This document shows positions 29,617 through 42,455 of a stretch of DNA of 43,450 nt, in pieces. Numbering within the stretch: position 1 is the first letter of the stretch; every line of letters begins with the position of its first letter. The DNA lies in contig NZ_HE578925.1 of assembly GCF_000313565.1 (NCBI RefSeq), forward strand, positions 390,733 to 434,182, written 5' to 3'. The notes under the pieces were generated by a model that saw only the letters and a list, made by a program, of their open reading frames with translations, was not told the DNA's origin and searched no databases. Both the position numbers and the translations under genes were made by a program. The stretch comes from Dielma fastidiosa (GTDB lineage: Bacteria; Bacillota_I; Bacilli_A; Erysipelotrichales; Erysipelotrichaceae).

Positions 29617-29624
29617 TATAGTAA

Positions 29625-29830
29625 ATCCTATGAATAAGCGTGTTTTAGAAGTCATGCGAAGAGAGAAGGCGGTTGGTGTAAGCCTTTGTTGAGTTCTGAA
29701 ACTGGACACTTTGGAGGAGCTGTTCTGATAAGGTTCAGCCGTTAATTCCGCGTTAGGGAACAAAGTTGCAGCATTCGTGCTGAACTAAGGTGGTACCGCG
29801 CTTATGCGTCCTTAGATGAGGGCGCTTTTT
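29625..29830 (+). promoter_or_regulatory. T-box riboswitch controlling hisS-aspS
   Basis: Stem I features are visible: AGAGA (29662-29666), the distal-loop sequence GGTTGGTGTAAGCC (29671-29684), and the specifier region containing GGACAC (29704-29709), which reads CAC (His) and also GAC (Asp). The T-box core TAAGGTGGTACCGCG is at 29786-29800. The terminator is GCGTCCT (29806-29812)/AGGGCGC (29819-29825) followed by Ts. Uncharged tRNA should stabilise the antiterminator and allow expression of the two synthetase genes. This leader fills the 306-base gap before hisS. Confidence 0.92.
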
Positions 29831-29853: not shown

Positions 29854-31194
29854 ATGAGCAATTATCAAATGCCAAGAGGCACTCAGGATATTCTGCCGGC
29901 AATGTCATCGAAATGGCACAAGCTGGAAGACTTACTGCGTCAGTTCTGTTATGTCTATGATTACAGTGAAATCCGCACACCGATCTTTGAACACACAGAA
30001 GTATTTAAACGCGGCAATGATTCATCAGATATGGTGAACAAGGAAATGTATACGTTTATGGATAACGGCGGCCGTTCGTTAACTCTGCGGCCGGAGGGAA
30101 CGGCTGGGGTTGCCCGCAGCTTTGTAGAGAATAAACTGTTTGGCAGTGCGGATCTGCCGGTTAAAATGTATTACATGGGACCGCAGTTTCGTTATGAACG
30201 TCCGCAGAAGGGAAGACAGCGCATCTTCAATCAGTTTGGTGTTGAGGTAATCGGCGCTAAAAATCCGCTGCTTGATGTTGAAGCCATCTCTTTAGGCTGG
30301 TCAATCCTGTCTGCCTTAGGCTTGTCAGATTTGAAAGTCTTATTAAATACATTGGGTGATGACGAATCACGGGATGCCTACCGAACAGCTTTAAAGGAAC
30401 ACTTTAAAAAGGATATTTCTTCCATGTGTTCTGACTGTCAGCGCCGTTATGAACAGAATCCGTTAAGAATTCTGGATTGCAAGGTTGACGCTGAAGCTGA
30501 AATTATGAAAACCGTACCTAAGATTCACGACTATCTGACCCCTGAATCAAAGGCGTATTTTGACGCTGTATGCGCTGGCTTAGATGCGCTGGGAATTCCC
30601 TATGTAATTGAAGACCGCTTAGTGCGCGGTTTGGATTATTATACACATACGGTCTTTGAGGTTGTTTCCGTGAATGAACAGATGGGTTCGCAAAGCACTG
30701 TCTTAGCCGGCGGCCGTTATGATGGTTTAGTAGAATATTTCGGCGGTCCGCAGGGCATGTCCGGCATTGGCTGGGCAATGGGCATGGAACGAATCCTGAT
30801 AGCTCTTGAAGCTGAAGGCATCGATATGAGTGATCCTGAGGAATTAGATGCCTATGTGCTGTGTCTTGATGAAAGTGCTGCCTTAGAAGCCTTTAAAATC
30901 ACGACTGAATTAAGAGCTGCCGGATATCGCTCAGACATGGATTATCTGAACCGTTCCTTTAAGGCTCAATTTAAAACGGTAGACCGCAAGAAGGCAAAGG
31001 CTGCTATCTTGATCGGTGAAACTGAAGTTAAAAATCAAAGTGTCACGATTAAACGCATCGATGATCAAACACAGGTCAGCGTCCCGATGAGCGATTTGAT
31101 TGATGCCATGGATTCAATGTTTGCCATGGAGGATGAACATGAACATACTTGCACATGTGGCGAGGGTAACTGCACATGCGGCAATCATGAATAG
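29854..31194 (+). CDS. hisS: Histidine--tRNA ligase with a Cys/His-rich C-terminal tail
   Basis: 446 residues, class II synthetase. Motif 1 region, the TLRPEGTAG motif (motif 2 area), RYERPQKGRQR, and HisRS-specific motifs LVRGLDYYTHTVFEV and AGGRYDGLVEYFGG are present, followed by the anticodon-binding domain. The last 20 or so residues (EHEHTCTCGEGNCTCGNHE) are an unusual extension beyond the usual ~420-residue core, with CxCx4CxC flanked by histidines. AAGGAGA precedes the ATG. Co-transcribed with aspS 12 bases later. Confidence 0.96.
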   Translation: MSNYQMPRGTQDILPAMSSKWHKLEDLLRQFCYVYDYSEIRTPIFEHTEVFKRGNDSSDMVNKEMYTFMDNGGRSLTLRPEGTAGVARSFVENKLFGSADLPVKMYYMGPQFRYERPQKGRQRIFNQFGVEVIGAKNPLLDVEAISLGWSILSALGLSDLKVLLNTLGDDESRDAYRTALKEHFKKDISSMCSDCQRRYEQNPLRILDCKVDAEAEIMKTVPKIHDYLTPESKAYFDAVCAGLDALGIPYVIEDRLVRGLDYYTHTVFEVVSVNEQMGSQSTVLAGGRYDGLVEYFGGPQGMSGIGWAMGMERILIALEAEGIDMSDPEELDAYVLCLDESAALEAFKITTELRAAGYRSDMDYLNRSFKAQFKTVDRKKAKAAILIGETEVKNQSVTIKRIDDQTQVSVPMSDLIDAMDSMFAMEDEHEHTCTCGEGNCTCGNHE

Positions 31195-31206: not shown

Positions 31207-32949
31207 ATGAAACGTACACATAGCTGCGGCGAATTAAGCATGCTTGAAGCAGGACAAAATGTCACTCTGATTGGCTGGGTAGCCAAACGAAGAAATTTCG
31301 GATCATTAGTTTTTATCGATTTAAGAGATCGTACCGGCATTACACAATGTGTCTTTGATGAAACGATTTCTGATCAGATTACATCTGTCCGCAATGAATA
31401 TATCTTGGAAGTAAGCGGCAACGTCTGCGAACGTAAGGATAAGAATCCTAAAATGGCTACCGGTGATATTGAAATCATCGTTGAAAAAGTAACCATTATC
31501 AACAGTGCTGAAACAACACCTTTATTGATTGCGGATGAAACCGACGCTTTAGAGGATACTCGTTTAAAATACCGTTATCTTGATTTAAGAAGACCAGTGA
31601 TGCAGAAAAAGCTCATCGAACGGGCACAGATTACCCGTGTGATGCGCCGGGTGCTTGATGATCAGGGCTTCATTGAGATTGAAACACCGATTCTTGGTAA
31701 ATCTACGCCGGAAGGGGCTCGTGATTATCTGGTTCCTTCACGCATTCATCCGGGCCAGTTCTATGCGCTGCCGCAGTCTCCGCAATTGTTTAAGCAATTG
31801 CTGATGGTTTCCGGCTTTGAACGTTATTACCAAGTAGCCCGCTGTTTCCGTGATGAGGATTTACGTGCTGACCGTCAGCTGGATTTTACACAGTTTGATA
31901 TTGAAACCAGCTTTATGAGCGAAGATGAAATTATTGAAATGACTGAAAACATGCTTAAGGCAGTGATGAAGGAAGTTAAGGGCATCGATGTTAAAACACC
32001 ATTCTTGCGCATGACATGGCATGATGCGATGAATAAATACGGCAGTGACAAGCCGGACAACCGTTTTGGCTATGAGCTGCATGATCTTTCAGATCTGTTT
32101 GTTAACTGTGAGTTTAAGGTATTTAAGGATTGTCTTGCCAATAAGGGTGTAATTAAAGCAATCTGTGTTGATCATCAAAGTCATATGACACGCAAGGACA
32201 TTGATCATGCTACTGATTTTGCTAAGAAATATGGCGCTAAAGGGCTTGTTGTATTAAAGGTGCTTAATGGCACGGTAGAAGGCAGTGCAGCCAAGTTCTT
32301 TAATGAGGATGAAAAAGCAGCGATGATTAAAGCGATGAATGCTCAGGAAGAGGATGTAATCTTTATTGTCTCTGACAAATGGAAGACAGCCTGTGATGTA
32401 TTAGGAGCATTGCGCGGTTACTTTGCGAAAGAGAAAAACCTGCTTGATGTAAATACATTCAGCTTTTTATGGGTTACTGATTTCCCATTGCTTGAATATA
32501 ACGAAGAAGATGGCCGCTATTATGCGATGCATCATCCATTTACAATGCCAAAAGCTGAAGATCTGCCGCTTTTGGATACCGATCCAGGCGCGGTTAAAGC
32601 TGCCGCTTATGACATTGTCTTAAATGGTTATGAGCTTGGCGGCGGTTCACTGCGTATCTATGATCAAAAGCTTCAAGAAAAGATGTTTGAAGTATTGGGC
32701 TTTACTGAAGAAAAAATTCGTTCAAGCTTTGGCTGGTTTGTTGATGCCTTCAAATACGGAACACCTCCGCATGGCGGTTTGGCACTTGGCTTAGACCGTG
32801 TTGCGATGATCTTGACTGGTTCAGATTCTATCCGTGACGTTATCGCATTCCCGAAAAACGCCAATGCCCGCTGTCCGATGTGTGAAGCGCCTGACAGTGT
32901 AGATCCGGCACAGCTTGAGGAACTGCATATTCGTATCAATCAAGAATAA
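31207..32949 (+). CDS. aspS: Aspartate--tRNA ligase
   Basis: 580 residues, bacterial type with the internal GAD insertion. The N-terminal OB-fold anticodon domain (GWVAKRRNFGSLVFIDLRDRTG), motif 2 (YYQVARCFRDEDLRADRQ, FTQFDIE) and motif 3 (GLALGLDRVAMIL) are visible. Typical N-terminus MKRTHSCGEL. Whether it is discriminating or non-discriminating for Asn cannot be judged safely here. AGGAGG lies 9 bases upstream. Ends at a strong terminator. Confidence 0.96.
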   Translation: MKRTHSCGELSMLEAGQNVTLIGWVAKRRNFGSLVFIDLRDRTGITQCVFDETISDQITSVRNEYILEVSGNVCERKDKNPKMATGDIEIIVEKVTIINSAETTPLLIADETDALEDTRLKYRYLDLRRPVMQKKLIERAQITRVMRRVLDDQGFIEIETPILGKSTPEGARDYLVPSRIHPGQFYALPQSPQLFKQLLMVSGFERYYQVARCFRDEDLRADRQLDFTQFDIETSFMSEDEIIEMTENMLKAVMKEVKGIDVKTPFLRMTWHDAMNKYGSDKPDNRFGYELHDLSDLFVNCEFKVFKDCLANKGVIKAICVDHQSHMTRKDIDHATDFAKKYGAKGLVVLKVLNGTVEGSAAKFFNEDEKAAMIKAMNAQEEDVIFIVSDKWKTACDVLGALRGYFAKEKNLLDVNTFSFLWVTDFPLLEYNEEDGRYYAMHHPFTMPKAEDLPLLDTDPGAVKAAAYDIVLNGYELGGGSLRIYDQKLQEKMFEVLGFTEEKIRSSFGWFVDAFKYGTPPHGGLALGLDRVAMILTGSDSIRDVIAFPKNANARCPMCEAPDSVDPAQLEELHIRINQE

Positions 32950-38258: not shown

Positions 38259-38477
38259 ATGACCTTAAATGATATTGTCCGGCTTAATATAATTACAATA
38301 TTAAAATCACGGGGTTATTATAAAAATAAACGCCTGACCCTGCCAATGGATATGAAATATCTCTATTCTACCTTATCATCGATTATTAAGGGCAGCGGCG
38401 GGATGACGCTGAATACCTTGGAAACAGTAGCACACGCATTGGATGTTGAAGTAGCGGAATTAATCCGCTGGGAATAA
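38259..38477 (+). CDS. Small XRE/Cro-type helix-turn-helix protein
   Basis: 72 residues. The pattern LYSTLSSIIKGSGGMTLNTLETVAHALDVEVAELI is that of a Cro/CI-type HTH, with recognition helix at about 35-45 and the closing hydrophobic helix at 50-68. It has no extra effector domain. The AGGGGTG ribosome binding site precedes the ATG. The following cysteine-rich gene begins within 12 bases, so the two are co-translated. Target genes unknown. Confidence 0.75.
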   Translation: MTLNDIVRLNIITILKSRGYYKNKRLTLPMDMKYLYSTLSSIIKGSGGMTLNTLETVAHALDVEVAELIRWE

Positions 38478-38489
38478 ATGGAGAACGTT

Positions 38490-38927
38490 ATGTGTAAAGA
38501 ATGTTATGTCACAGATAGCCGGTGTACACCGCTTTTAAAACCATTAGATTGTTTAAAAAATCATACCCAATACATTTGCTCTACCTGCGGCCGCTGCATC
38601 TGTATTGAAGCAGATCCTAAACGCTCTTTGCAGCGTTGGAATTTTCCTTTCAAGACATTGGAAATTGCGAAGATGTATCTGCGGGCAGCAGATTATACTA
38701 CAAAAAAAGCCTGCGGAATCTATCAGATAGAAAACAGCAGGGGACAATCAATTTATAAAATATTTACCGGCGCTGATGATTTGCAGCTTTATCTGAATAA
38801 GCATAAGGATAAAAGCTGCTCGGCGATGGCGCCTGTCTATACGGCAAAAGAATTCATTGCCTATCCAAACACACAGGTACGCCGCCTGAGTGATGAAGAA
38901 ATTGAAAAATATCTGTCAGAACGCTGA
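38490..38927 (+). CDS. Cysteine-rich protein of unknown function, paired with XRE regulator
   Basis: 145 residues from ATG 38490, chosen because GGAG (38480-38483) is 6 bases upstream; the in-frame ATG at 38478 directly abuts the previous stop and has no ribosome binding site. The N-terminal third has eight cysteines: MCKEC, Cys12, Cys21, and CSTCGRCIC (30-38), suggesting one or two zinc or iron-sulfur sites. The rest is a soluble mixed domain (YRIENSRG..IYKIF-like strand pattern) ending in a charged helix. I do not recognise the family. Tight coupling to the XRE gene suggests a shared role. Confidence 0.7.
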   Translation: MCKECYVTDSRCTPLLKPLDCLKNHTQYICSTCGRCICIEADPKRSLQRWNFPFKTLEIAKMYLRAADYTTKKACGIYQIENSRGQSIYKIFTGADDLQLYLNKHKDKSCSAMAPVYTAKEFIAYPNTQVRRLSDEEIEKYLSER

Positions 38928-38944: not shown

Positions 38945-38973
38945 AAAATAAAAGGCAGGCATCGCTGCCTGCC
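38945..38973 (-). terminator. Rho-independent terminator of the minus-strand RNA
   Basis: 8-pair GC-rich stem GGCAGGCA/TGCCTGCC with a 4-base loop. On the minus strand it is followed by TTTTATTTT; on the plus strand no T run follows, which fixes the orientation. Confidence 0.85.
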
Positions 38974-39123
38974 ACCAAAAGGTGAGACCTTTTCCCTGTA
39001 TATACAGGTGGGCATCCTGTGTAAGTTTTTAGGATTCCTGCACTCGTGCAGGCATTCACACCAAAATACAACGTCCGGATTCCCTTATCTCAACTTGTAG
39101 GAAAAATTTTATACCTTTTGGAT
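38945..39123 (-). ncRNA. Structured non-coding RNA of uncertain class (6S-like or raiA-like candidate)
   Basis: On the minus strand a TATAAT box (39130-39135) is followed about 180 bases later by a near-perfect terminator (GGCAGGCA/TGCCTGCC, 38954-38973, then a T-rich tract to 38945). The predicted 5' end CCAAAAGG (39114-39121) pairs with CCTTTTGG (38975-38982). Interior helices: CCTGCA/TGCAGG (39037-39052), CCTGTATATACAGG (38995-39008), ATCCT/AGGAT (39014-39035), and GGTG/CACC-type closure (38981-38987 with 39056-39062). An alternative rod-shaped fold is also possible. No open reading frame lies here. It fills most of the 378-base gap before truB. Class not established by eye. Confidence 0.6.
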
Positions 39124-39129
39124 AATCTT

Positions 39130-39135
39130 ATTATA
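39130..39135 (-). promoter_or_regulatory. -10 box of the minus-strand RNA
   Basis: TATAAT on the minus strand, about 7 bases before the predicted 5' end of the RNA. The -35 region (GTATTA) is poor. Confidence 0.55.
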
Positions 39136-39268
39136 TCTTAAAAAAATCTAAATAATACTCTTGACTTTTAGGAAATGTTTAGAAATTTTATTTCGTCATA
39201 CTTTCTCATCTCAAAACAAGCATCAGGAAAAGGCCGCAAATCGTTTTCTCAACATGCTTCTTATTTTA

Positions 39269-39277
39269 TGTTATAAT
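39269..39277 (+). promoter_or_regulatory. Extended -10 promoter for truB
   Basis: TGTTATAAT (TGn directly before TATAAT at 39272-39277), 28 bases before the truB start. Confidence 0.6.
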
Positions 39278-39305: not shown

Positions 39306-40136
39306 ATGGATGGAATTCTTTTAATTAATAAAGCGGCCGGCATGACAAGTCATGATGTCGTGTTTAAATTACGAAAGCTGCTGAATACTAAAAAAATCGG
39401 TCATACTGGAACGCTTGATCCGGATGCGACAGGTGTTCTGATCGTCTTAGTCGGCAGAGCCTGCAAGATTTTGCCGTTTTTGGAAAATACCGATAAAGAA
39501 TATATCGCTCAGCTTATGCTGGGTCAGACAACTGATACTGAAGATATTTGGGGCAAGGTGCTTGCCACCGGTGAAATTAAACCGATTGAGGATTTTGAAG
39601 GCTTATTGAAAAGCTTTGAGGGCAGACAGAAGCAGCTGCCGCCAATGGTTTCATCAATTAAGGTGAATGGGAAGAAGCTTTATGAATATGCCCGAAGCGG
39701 CGAGGCGGTAGAACGGCCGCTCAGAGACATTGAAATCTATGAAACCCAAGTGCTGGATGCCAAAGAGCTGCGTTTTCGCGTAGCTTGTTCAAGCGGTACT
39801 TATATCCGTTCGCTGTGCCGTGATTTGGCTGAGAAAAGCGGAAATCTGGGCTGCATGAGCTCATTAGTGCGCAGTAAGGCAGGTCATTTTACCTTGGCTC
39901 AATGTGTCAGCCTTGAGGATGTCGCTAAAGGCAATTACAAACTGCTGCCGATGATTGAAGCATTAAAGCATCTGCCAATGATTACACCGGCCAATGAAGC
40001 TGATATAAGAAATGGCAAGCGGGTGCAATTAAACTGCGATGAAGCGCAGGTCGTGATGATCAGCAACGATGAAGTGCTGGCTGTCTATGAACGTGAAAAA
40101 GAAAATATCTATCGCTGTGTGCGGGGATTATGGTAA
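39306..40136 (+). CDS. truB: tRNA pseudouridine(55) synthase TruB
   Basis: 276 residues. Makes pseudouridine 55 in the tRNA T-loop. Catalytic Asp38 lies in the GHTGTLDPDATG motif (residues 32-43). The MDGILLINKAAGMTSHDVV N-terminus and SSIKVNGKKLYEYAR motif are typical, as is GTYIRSLCRDL. A GAGGTGA ribosome binding site precedes the ATG. ribF follows after 10 bases, the usual truB-ribF arrangement. Confidence 0.96.
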   Translation: MDGILLINKAAGMTSHDVVFKLRKLLNTKKIGHTGTLDPDATGVLIVLVGRACKILPFLENTDKEYIAQLMLGQTTDTEDIWGKVLATGEIKPIEDFEGLLKSFEGRQKQLPPMVSSIKVNGKKLYEYARSGEAVERPLRDIEIYETQVLDAKELRFRVACSSGTYIRSLCRDLAEKSGNLGCMSSLVRSKAGHFTLAQCVSLEDVAKGNYKLLPMIEALKHLPMITPANEADIRNGKRVQLNCDEAQVVMISNDEVLAVYEREKENIYRCVRGLW

Positions 40137-40146
40137 GGAGAGAGTT

Positions 40147-41088
40147 ATGGAAGTAATAAGAATGGGTATCGGTTCGATTCAATCATCGCCGGTACCGTTA
40201 TCAGCTTGTATCGGATATTTTGACGGTCTGCATTTAGGCCATCAGCAGCTGGTAGCCAACGCAATCGCAGCTGCCAAGGATCATCACTGCCAAAGCGCGC
40301 TGATCACCTTTGATCCTGACCCTTGGGCAGTATTAAAAGATCTTCAGGATATCGACCATTTGACAACGATGGCAGAACGCATTGAATTAGGCGCTAAGCT
40401 GGGCATTGAAAAATGGATTATCTTGGAATTTACAAAAGAGCTGGCCGCGTTAACGCCGGAAGCTTTTTTAAATCAGATTTTGATTCCGCTGAATCTGCAC
40501 ACATTAGTCTGCGGCTTTGATTATCATTATGGCTGCCGCGGGCAGGGGAACGTCGATACGCTGAAAAAACAGAGTGTTTTTGATGTCAAGGTAGTTGCGG
40601 AGGTCGATTATGCGGGGGAGAAGATCAGTTCCACAAGAATTGAAAAAGCGATCAGTGAAGGCGATATGGTTTTGAGTGAAAAGCTTTTGGGCCGTCCTTA
40701 CAGCCTGCATGGCAGCGTTGTGCGCGGCAATCACGTCGGCACCAACGTACTGGGCTTTCCAACTGCCAATTTAGCTCTCAGCGATCATTATGTGATTCCT
40801 AAGCGCGGTGTCTATGTTGGCGCCTGCCGCTGTAACGGTGAATTGATAAAGGCGATGATCAACATTGGACATAACCCAACATGCAACCATCGTGATGAGC
40901 TCAGCGTCGAAGCCCACCTGATCGATTTCAATCAGGATCTTTATGGTCAGACGATTACGCTGTATTTTTATGAAAAGCTGCGTGATGAAGTAAAGTTTGC
41001 CAGTGCTGATGAGCTGATTGCTCAGTTAAACGCTGACCGGCTCAATACAAAGAATTATCAAAGAAAAGAGGGAATGGCATGCGTTTAA
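40147..41088 (+). CDS. ribF: Bifunctional riboflavin kinase / FAD synthetase
   Basis: 313 residues from ATG 40147, behind TAAGGAGAG; the open frame reaches back into truB but without signals. N-terminal FAD synthetase domain with GYFDGLHLGH (residues 23-32) and FDPDPW; C-terminal riboflavin kinase domain with GTNVLGFPTANL and the KRGVYVG motif. Converts riboflavin to FMN and FAD. The stop overlaps the start of the next gene by 10 bases. Confidence 0.95.
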   Translation: MEVIRMGIGSIQSSPVPLSACIGYFDGLHLGHQQLVANAIAAAKDHHCQSALITFDPDPWAVLKDLQDIDHLTTMAERIELGAKLGIEKWIILEFTKELAALTPEAFLNQILIPLNLHTLVCGFDYHYGCRGQGNVDTLKKQSVFDVKVVAEVDYAGEKISSTRIEKAISEGDMVLSEKLLGRPYSLHGSVVRGNHVGTNVLGFPTANLALSDHYVIPKRGVYVGACRCNGELIKAMINIGHNPTCNHRDELSVEAHLIDFNQDLYGQTITLYFYEKLRDEVKFASADELIAQLNADRLNTKNYQRKEGMACV

Positions 41089-42455
41089 GTATCTTTGATA
41101 CCATTGATTCCACGCTGGCTCTGCTTGATGAGCGAAATGATCTTTATCATGAATTGGAACAGCAGCTGAAATCAGATCTTTATGCTATTTTTGAAGCAGA
41201 CGCGGAAATGATCGTCGATATTTTTTCACGTGTTAAGACGCGCGAGAGTCTGCGTGAAAAAATCATCCGCAATCGTTTCTATATCAACTATGACAACAGT
41301 GAGGATATCCTCGACAATCTTTCTGATTTGATTGGTGTCAGCATCGAATGCCGCTTTATTGAAGAAGAATATAAGGTACTAAAACGTCTGCGTGAATATT
41401 TCATCGTCCCTGATGAAGCAAGCGGTTATTTTTATAATGAGAATCATCCTGAGCTGTTTTTAGATACTGCTTCAAGACAGCCGCAGGTTCAGAAAAATGG
41501 TTTTTCAATTTATCGGATTGATGGTTTTATCATGCATAACGGCATGAAGATCAACTTTGAACTGCAGATTAAAGCACTGGTTCATGCGTTTTGGGGTGAT
41601 ATTGAACATAAGCTCGTTTATAAGAATACAAATTATTATGTCTATGATAGTTTTATGGTTGATATTCTCTCCTCAATAAAAGCGAATCTGACGATCATTG
41701 ACCGCCAGCTCAGCATCATTTACAATCAGATGCAGAATTCAAGTATGAGTGATGTTTCAATCAGTGAGAAGAGTTTTGAGAAAATCGTTACAAAGGCGAT
41801 TAATGATCTCTTTGCGATGAAGATGAATGAATCAATCGGCTTTACGATTAATTTAAAGAGTACCAGTTCAATTTTAGGTCATTATATTTTTATCAAGGAT
41901 ATCCGTCATTCCTCAATGAATAATGACCGCATCTCGCTGTTATTTAAAACGTTTAAGAAAGTGAATAATTCACAGATGGATTTTGAAAATGAAATCGTAC
42001 TGGATGGTGATTTCAGTTCAAATGACCCGTTTATTCAAATTCTCGGTGAATATCTTGTTTCAGTCATCAATATAGATTATGACTGGTATGTTTTCTTCAA
42101 GATGCTGTTTTTTATTGAACCAGGCAATAATACTGAAGATTTTGTTTTATTCCTTAAAGTCATCAAAAATTATTTGGTCGATGATTATTGGCTGAAAACC
42201 AGCTTTGTAAGATTAAGCATGAGTGAAAGTGTCATGGTTCAAGATGAATGTGCGGCCATTCTGGCACGTTCCCTGGTTGCTATTAAAACGATAGCGATCA
42301 TCGATGATGACAAGATGATTGCTGTTAATAAAGCTTTTGTTTTATTCATTCAGGAGCTGGAAACCAGAGTCATTAATTACAGTGATTTCATGAATTATAA
42401 AGAAGCTTATTATCATGATTGGTTAAATCGGATGAATCATATTTTTAATCGTTAG
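41079..42455 (+). CDS. Divergent RelA/SpoT-domain (alarmone synthetase-like) protein with unknown C-terminal region
   Basis: 458 residues. Residues about 20-190 follow the (p)ppGpp synthetase fold of small alarmone synthetases: SRVKTRESLREKI (ATP-binding region, residues 50-62), DLIGVSIECRF (metal Asp83), ELQIKALVHAFWGDIEHKL (Glu161). The nucleotide-stacking motif, usually NGYRSLH, is NGFSIYR here (Phe142 for Tyr, no His), so activity or specificity may be altered or lost. Residues 190-458 are a helical region I do not recognise. It is not the long Rel, which is at 14874-17075. The AGAGGG ribosome binding site lies within the end of ribF; 10-base overlap implies coupling. Confidence 0.75.
   Translation: MRLSIFDTIDSTLALLDERNDLYHELEQQLKSDLYAIFEADAEMIVDIFSRVKTRESLREKIIRNRFYINYDNSEDILDNLSDLIGVSIECRFIEEEYKVLKRLREYFIVPDEASGYFYNENHPELFLDTASRQPQVQKNGFSIYRIDGFIMHNGMKINFELQIKALVHAFWGDIEHKLVYKNTNYYVYDSFMVDILSSIKANLTIIDRQLSIIYNQMQNSSMSDVSISEKSFEKIVTKAINDLFAMKMNESIGFTINLKSTSSILGHYIFIKDIRHSSMNNDRISLLFKTFKKVNNSQMDFENEIVLDGDFSSNDPFIQILGEYLVSVINIDYDWYVFFKMLFFIEPGNNTEDFVLFLKVIKNYLVDDYWLKTSFVRLSMSESVMVQDECAAILARSLVAIKTIAIIDDDKMIAVNKAFVLFIQELETRVINYSDFMNYKEAYYHDWLNRMNHIFNR

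Follow-up and report, generated by a model that had tools for sequence, protein, structure and literature searches.

A predicted 6S RNA gene beside truB in Dielma fastidiosa

6S RNA, a well-known small RNA, acts as a mimic of an open promoter and keeps RNA polymerase parked. A conserved GG in the pRNA and an A adjacent to the pRNA start are reported hallmarks of such RNAs (PMC8414754). A collapse helix had earlier been inferred in B. subtilis, from probing and mutants, and in A. aeolicus. The B. subtilis 6S-1 gene lies by rarA, and those of lactic acid bacteria are flanked by rarA and uspA (PMC8414754). The locus described here has different neighbours and lies in an aspS-truB neighbourhood. 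In a 43,450-nucleotide stretch of Dielma fastidiosa DNA (the window), the minus-strand RNA beside truB is almost certainly a 6S RNA (SsrS) gene, running from a sigma-A-type promoter to its own terminator; we infer its expression, polymerase binding and pRNA synthesis. The find adds one more member to a known family and is largely ordinary housekeeping biology; it gives a 6S RNA to a lineage for which the searched open literature says little about 6S.

Identity and extent of the locus

A standard Rfam pass picks up the locus above the curated cut-off, with RF00013 (6S) matching positions 39102-38994 of the minus strand at 54.1 bits against a required 46.4. This alignment comprises model positions 40-147 of 187; it stops short of the closing stem because the local alignment omits that helix, and the closing-stem assignment therefore rests on the family alignment. 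The family covariance model R1, whose seed includes the window sequence, matches at full length at 39127-38968 on the minus strand with 140.3 bits. The gene and its surroundings comprise the following features:

38946-39123, minus strand: 6S RNA gene, predicted transcript of about 175 nt (RF00013 and R1 matches)
39130-39135, minus strand: -10 box TATAAT (sequence and relatives)
39160-39165, minus strand: upstream GTCAAG motif, lying 24 nt ahead of the -10 box (conserved in relatives)
38954-38973, minus strand: intrinsic terminator GGCAGGCAGCGAUGCCUGCC with a U-rich tail (terminator scan)
39306-40136, plus strand: truB, the divergent neighbour (Pfam TruB_N, 1.6e-51)
31207-32949, plus strand: aspS-like gene (Pfam), 6 kb from the 6S gene

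The transcript start was inferred to lie 7 nt after the -10 box, and the end was placed in the U-tract of the terminator. By sequence, promoter and terminator fit a free-standing transcript of about 160-200 nt. The first-pass annotation had described a TATAAT box, about 180 bases of foldable RNA and a terminator in one orientation; all are present, on the minus strand at 39135-38954. The span that it had assigned, 38945-39135, fits a gene from promoter to terminator, and the sequence supports its view of the locus as a free-standing RNA, structured and encoded on the minus strand. Among the identities it had offered, 6S RNA proved right in the Rfam comparison. The region has 5 terminator-like sites, where shuffled sequence gives an expectation of 0.3; a hairpin or U-run stands 3' of the closing stem at many relatives' loci. 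On the plus strand, a gene for a 149-aa cysteine-containing protein that lacks a Pfam match (38478-38927) ends just before the 6S terminator and is directly preceded by a small HTH_26 gene (38259-38477).

When the genome (98.5% complete) was searched with RF00013, the minus-strand locus beside truB was the sole 6S match, and searches with RF00013 and the family-specific model found no second copy. The upstream region and the RNA recur in near-identical form in Traorella massiliensis (L033) and in one member of the family (L144). Together with the relatives of truB, these two loci point to a family that is Erysipelotrichaceae-like. The region has no match to phage. A 6S match is present in 147 of 196 same-family genomes, one per genome. 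Scores exceed the Rfam cut-off in 65 of the 196, and many relatives fall below it. Under strict filters 49 of the 196 genomes have no 6S match, some of them nearly complete; two nearly complete genomes (G016 and G055) yield no 6S candidates at all.

Canonical rod and competing helix

The window fold is more stable than those of shuffled sequences (z -3.3; 1 of 200 shuffles as good). A first alignment, of the window and 28 relatives, served to derive the canonical 6S rod. In it, 92% of cells are paired and both sides have changed in 21 of 30 pairs; a covariation score of 0.527 compares with 0.233 for shuffled partners and at most 0.18 for slid ones. A second alignment, of the window and 42 sequences not used for deriving the structure, gives 0.542 against 0.216 shuffled and at most 0.20 slid. 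The comparison with relatives, proposed as a check at first pass, reveals strong compensatory change across the canonical 6S rod. Both alignments contain a central bubble and an interrupted apical arm with a terminal loop. The elements of the rod, and those of a helix that would compete with part of it, are:

39114-39121, minus strand: closing stem, 5' strand CCAAAAGG (folding, compensatory changes)
38975-38982, minus strand: closing stem, 3' strand CCUUUUGG (folding, compensatory changes)
39097-39110, minus strand: predicted template for a pRNA 5'-GUAGGAAAAAUUUU (from sequence rules); contains the 5' strand of helix P2
38990-38996, minus strand: helix P2, 3' strand GGGAAAA (folding, covariation)
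39032-39053, minus strand: apical hairpin GCCUGCACGAGUGCAGGAAUCC (99% of cells paired, compensatory changes in all five pairs, first alignment)
38995-39008, minus strand: hairpin CCUGUAUAUACAGG of the 3' central bubble, inside or following the invariant CCCACCUG (folding, alignment)
39087-39092, minus strand: UGAGAU of the distal 5' central bubble, 5' strand of the predicted collapse helix (covariation with 38988-38983)
38983-38988, minus strand: GUCUCA, 3' strand of the predicted collapse helix (covariation, constrained folding)

The closing stem joins the 5' and 3' ends of the RNA, pairing 39121-39114 with 38982-38975. This end-to-end pairing had been recognised at first pass, and it covaries in relatives: compensatory changes affect 7 of 8 pairs in the first alignment and all 8 in the second, placing the stem among the helices richest in such changes. 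The same annotation had seen two hairpin units beginning with similar RATGCC sequences. AATGCC and GATGCC do exist in the window; as a repeat they are not conserved in the alignments.

The sequence UCCnACA is invariant in the alignment, so that the predicted pRNA starts with GUnGG and has its GG at positions 4/5. With the start position set by sequence rules, GUnGGAAA occurs in 58 of 69 relatives, which by this rule keep the GG and the adjacent A.

The proposal of two competing folds was borne out in kind, with other partners than those suggested. The AAAAGG/CCUUUU pairing originally put forward forms 6 bp locally in the window and is not conserved; because no other relative exceeds 4 bp, we regard this fold as a private coincidence. 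The conserved pairing is that of 39092-39087 with 38988-38983, UGAGAU/GUCUCA, which is kept in relatives through UGAUAU/AUAUCA, CGAUAU/AUAUCG, AGAGAU/AUCUCU and GUAAAAUU/AAUUUUAC. Here 81-83% of cells are paired, and covariation scores of 0.25-0.36 compare with 0.14-0.17 for shuffled and at most 0.14 for slid partners. When partners were exchanged between species, the pairing strength with the own partner stood out at a z of about 10. Since the reversed-strand control reaches about 5, relatedness accounts for part, not all, of the signal.

The collapse helix crosses P2 and therefore excludes it in a nested fold. Constrained folding was carried out on the RNAs of 69 relatives, with the 14 nt of the predicted pRNA template blocked in silico. 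Under the block, the expected number of pairs in the collapse helix climbs from a mean of 1.1 to one of 4.4, with at least 3 expected in 48 of the 69 RNAs; a control block of another 14 nt has no effect on this helix. In the window, the refolded state would cost 0.4 kcal/mol (-40.2 vs -40.6). Covariation and these model calculations support the predicted refolding partners, and UGAGAU/GUCUCA matches the central bubble collapse helix reported in the 6S-1 RNA of B. subtilis (PMC8876501). With this comparative evidence, the collapse helix becomes testable in another firmicute lineage.

A release cycle can be proposed. The RNA would fold as a rod of closing stem, central bubble and apical arm. As is expected from its family, it would mimic an open promoter, bind RNA polymerase in its housekeeping holoenzyme form and reduce transcription during stationary phase. 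When nutrients return, polymerase would use the template at 39097 and upstream to make a short pRNA that starts with GUAGGAAAAA. Synthesis of this pRNA may strip helix P2, and the freed GUCUCA could then re-pair with the bubble's UGAGAU as the central bubble collapse helix, the formation of which would eject the RNA from polymerase.

Promoter, gene neighbourhood and rival explanations

All 72 family loci have a TATAAT-like box with 5 or 6 of 6 matches immediately 5' of the RNA, mostly at one and the same distance, and 36 of 51 non-redundant loci carry an extended TG at it. The -35 boxes at 6S loci are little better than those in shuffles. An exact GTCAAG spaced 23-26 nt upstream of the -10 box, in many of the family's 6S promoters 24-25 nt, is found in about 22 of the 51 non-redundant loci (L002, L009 and L124 among the loci with the motif) and is nearly absent at other offsets.

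Several explanations of this motif were considered. GTCAAG as the -35 box of a divergent promoter was rejected, as the corresponding -10 is no commoner than in shuffles. A general promoter type was likewise rejected: the genome contains 7 instances of the motif with TATAAT at 22-26 nt, and 4 of a reversed control pattern. As for a Spo0A box, motif and protein do co-occur, Spo0A being matched in 17 of 28 GTCAAG-positive and 6 of 29 negative genomes (Fisher p 0.003, phylogeny ignored); yet 11 genomes with the motif lack a match to Spo0A, which thus cannot be required. We propose tentatively, and with more doubt than confidence, that GTCAAG is a conserved, dedicated 6S promoter element acting 24-25 nt before the -10 box at promoters that have no good -35, combined with a collapse-helix release switch under selection family-wide. 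If this reading of GTCAAG were true, an unknown activator or an unusual polymerase contact would drive 6S.

In Traorella, the order is an aspS-type gene, 6S, dedA and truB, with 6S directly after the aspS-type gene and before dedA, about 690 nt from truB. The orientation of 6S there is opposite to that in the window, where 6S is inverted relative to truB by comparison. The order in a further relative (L002) is 6S, a PP-loop gene and truB, the last two named by similarity to another relative (L032) and the window. Most of the other relatives that were examined have a gene resembling aspS by sequence immediately 5' of 6S; Pfam assignments as aspS-type concern the Traorella and window genes only. 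The shared aspS/truB neighbourhood supports a common descent of the 6S loci. In the window, the aspS-like gene follows a hisS-like gene (29854-31194, plus strand), directly 5' of which lies a T-box leader (29621-29816, plus strand; 94.1 bits against an Rfam cut-off of 93). Encoded 3' of truB and ribF (41079-42455, plus strand) is a 458-aa protein with a RelA/SpoT domain, whose long C-terminal portion has no Pfam match.

The position between upstream genes and truB, together with a plus-strand terminator-like site at 39001-39023, would suit a cis-acting leader or attenuator of truB. This is highly improbable: a promoter-like site for truB lies further downstream, at 39249-39277, the Traorella RNA stands before dedA in the other orientation, and R1 reaches 140 bits for the minus strand and 22 for the plus strand, which also disfavours transcription solely as a plus-strand leader. 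Equally remote is a raiA-type RNA, a candidate of the first-pass annotation that shares with the locus its size and several hairpins; the Rfam scan of the locus up to E = 10 lists 6S at its 54.1 bits and does not list RF03072. A genome search for raiA gave no match and, having had no positive control, shows little.

Slightly less improbable, and still very unlikely, is a new structured RNA class superficially like 6S, for instance an Ms1-like RNA whose partner is core polymerase, not holoenzyme. Ms1 is structurally related to 6S (PMC9130861), and polymerase binding preference is not readable from sequence. Against it, the RF00013 match lies above the curated cut-off, the B. subtilis-type 3' bubble hairpin and CCCACCUG are kept, and the predicted template gives a GG at pRNA positions 4/5 with an adjacent A. 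The new class that had been suggested at first is not needed, and a 6S RNA gene remains the preferred reading.

Comparison with known 6S RNAs

The predicted RNA resembles B. subtilis 6S-1 RNA (BsrA, RF00013) in its rod, closing stem, 5' central bubble, small 3'-bubble hairpin and apical arm, and in a P2 that is predicted here to be replaceable by the central bubble collapse helix (PMC8876501). Whereas B. subtilis has both 6S-1 and 6S-2, one 6S copy was found here, and the pRNA GG, at positions 5/6 in B. subtilis, is predicted at 4/5 in Gram-negative style. The 6S RNAs of lactic acid bacteria share with it the canonical structure, the A next to the pRNA start and the pRNA GG (PMC8414754). In those bacteria, however, cre sites overlap the -35 region of the 6S promoter (PMC8414754); the common upstream element here is GTCAAG. 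E. coli SsrS is similar in its promoter-mimicking rod and pRNA GG at 4/5 (PMC8414754), and its release relies on an extended hairpin of 9 bp in the 3' bubble (PMC8876501). Unlike in SsrS, the short 3'-bubble hairpin here would already be formed in the free RNA, and a collapse helix is predicted instead.
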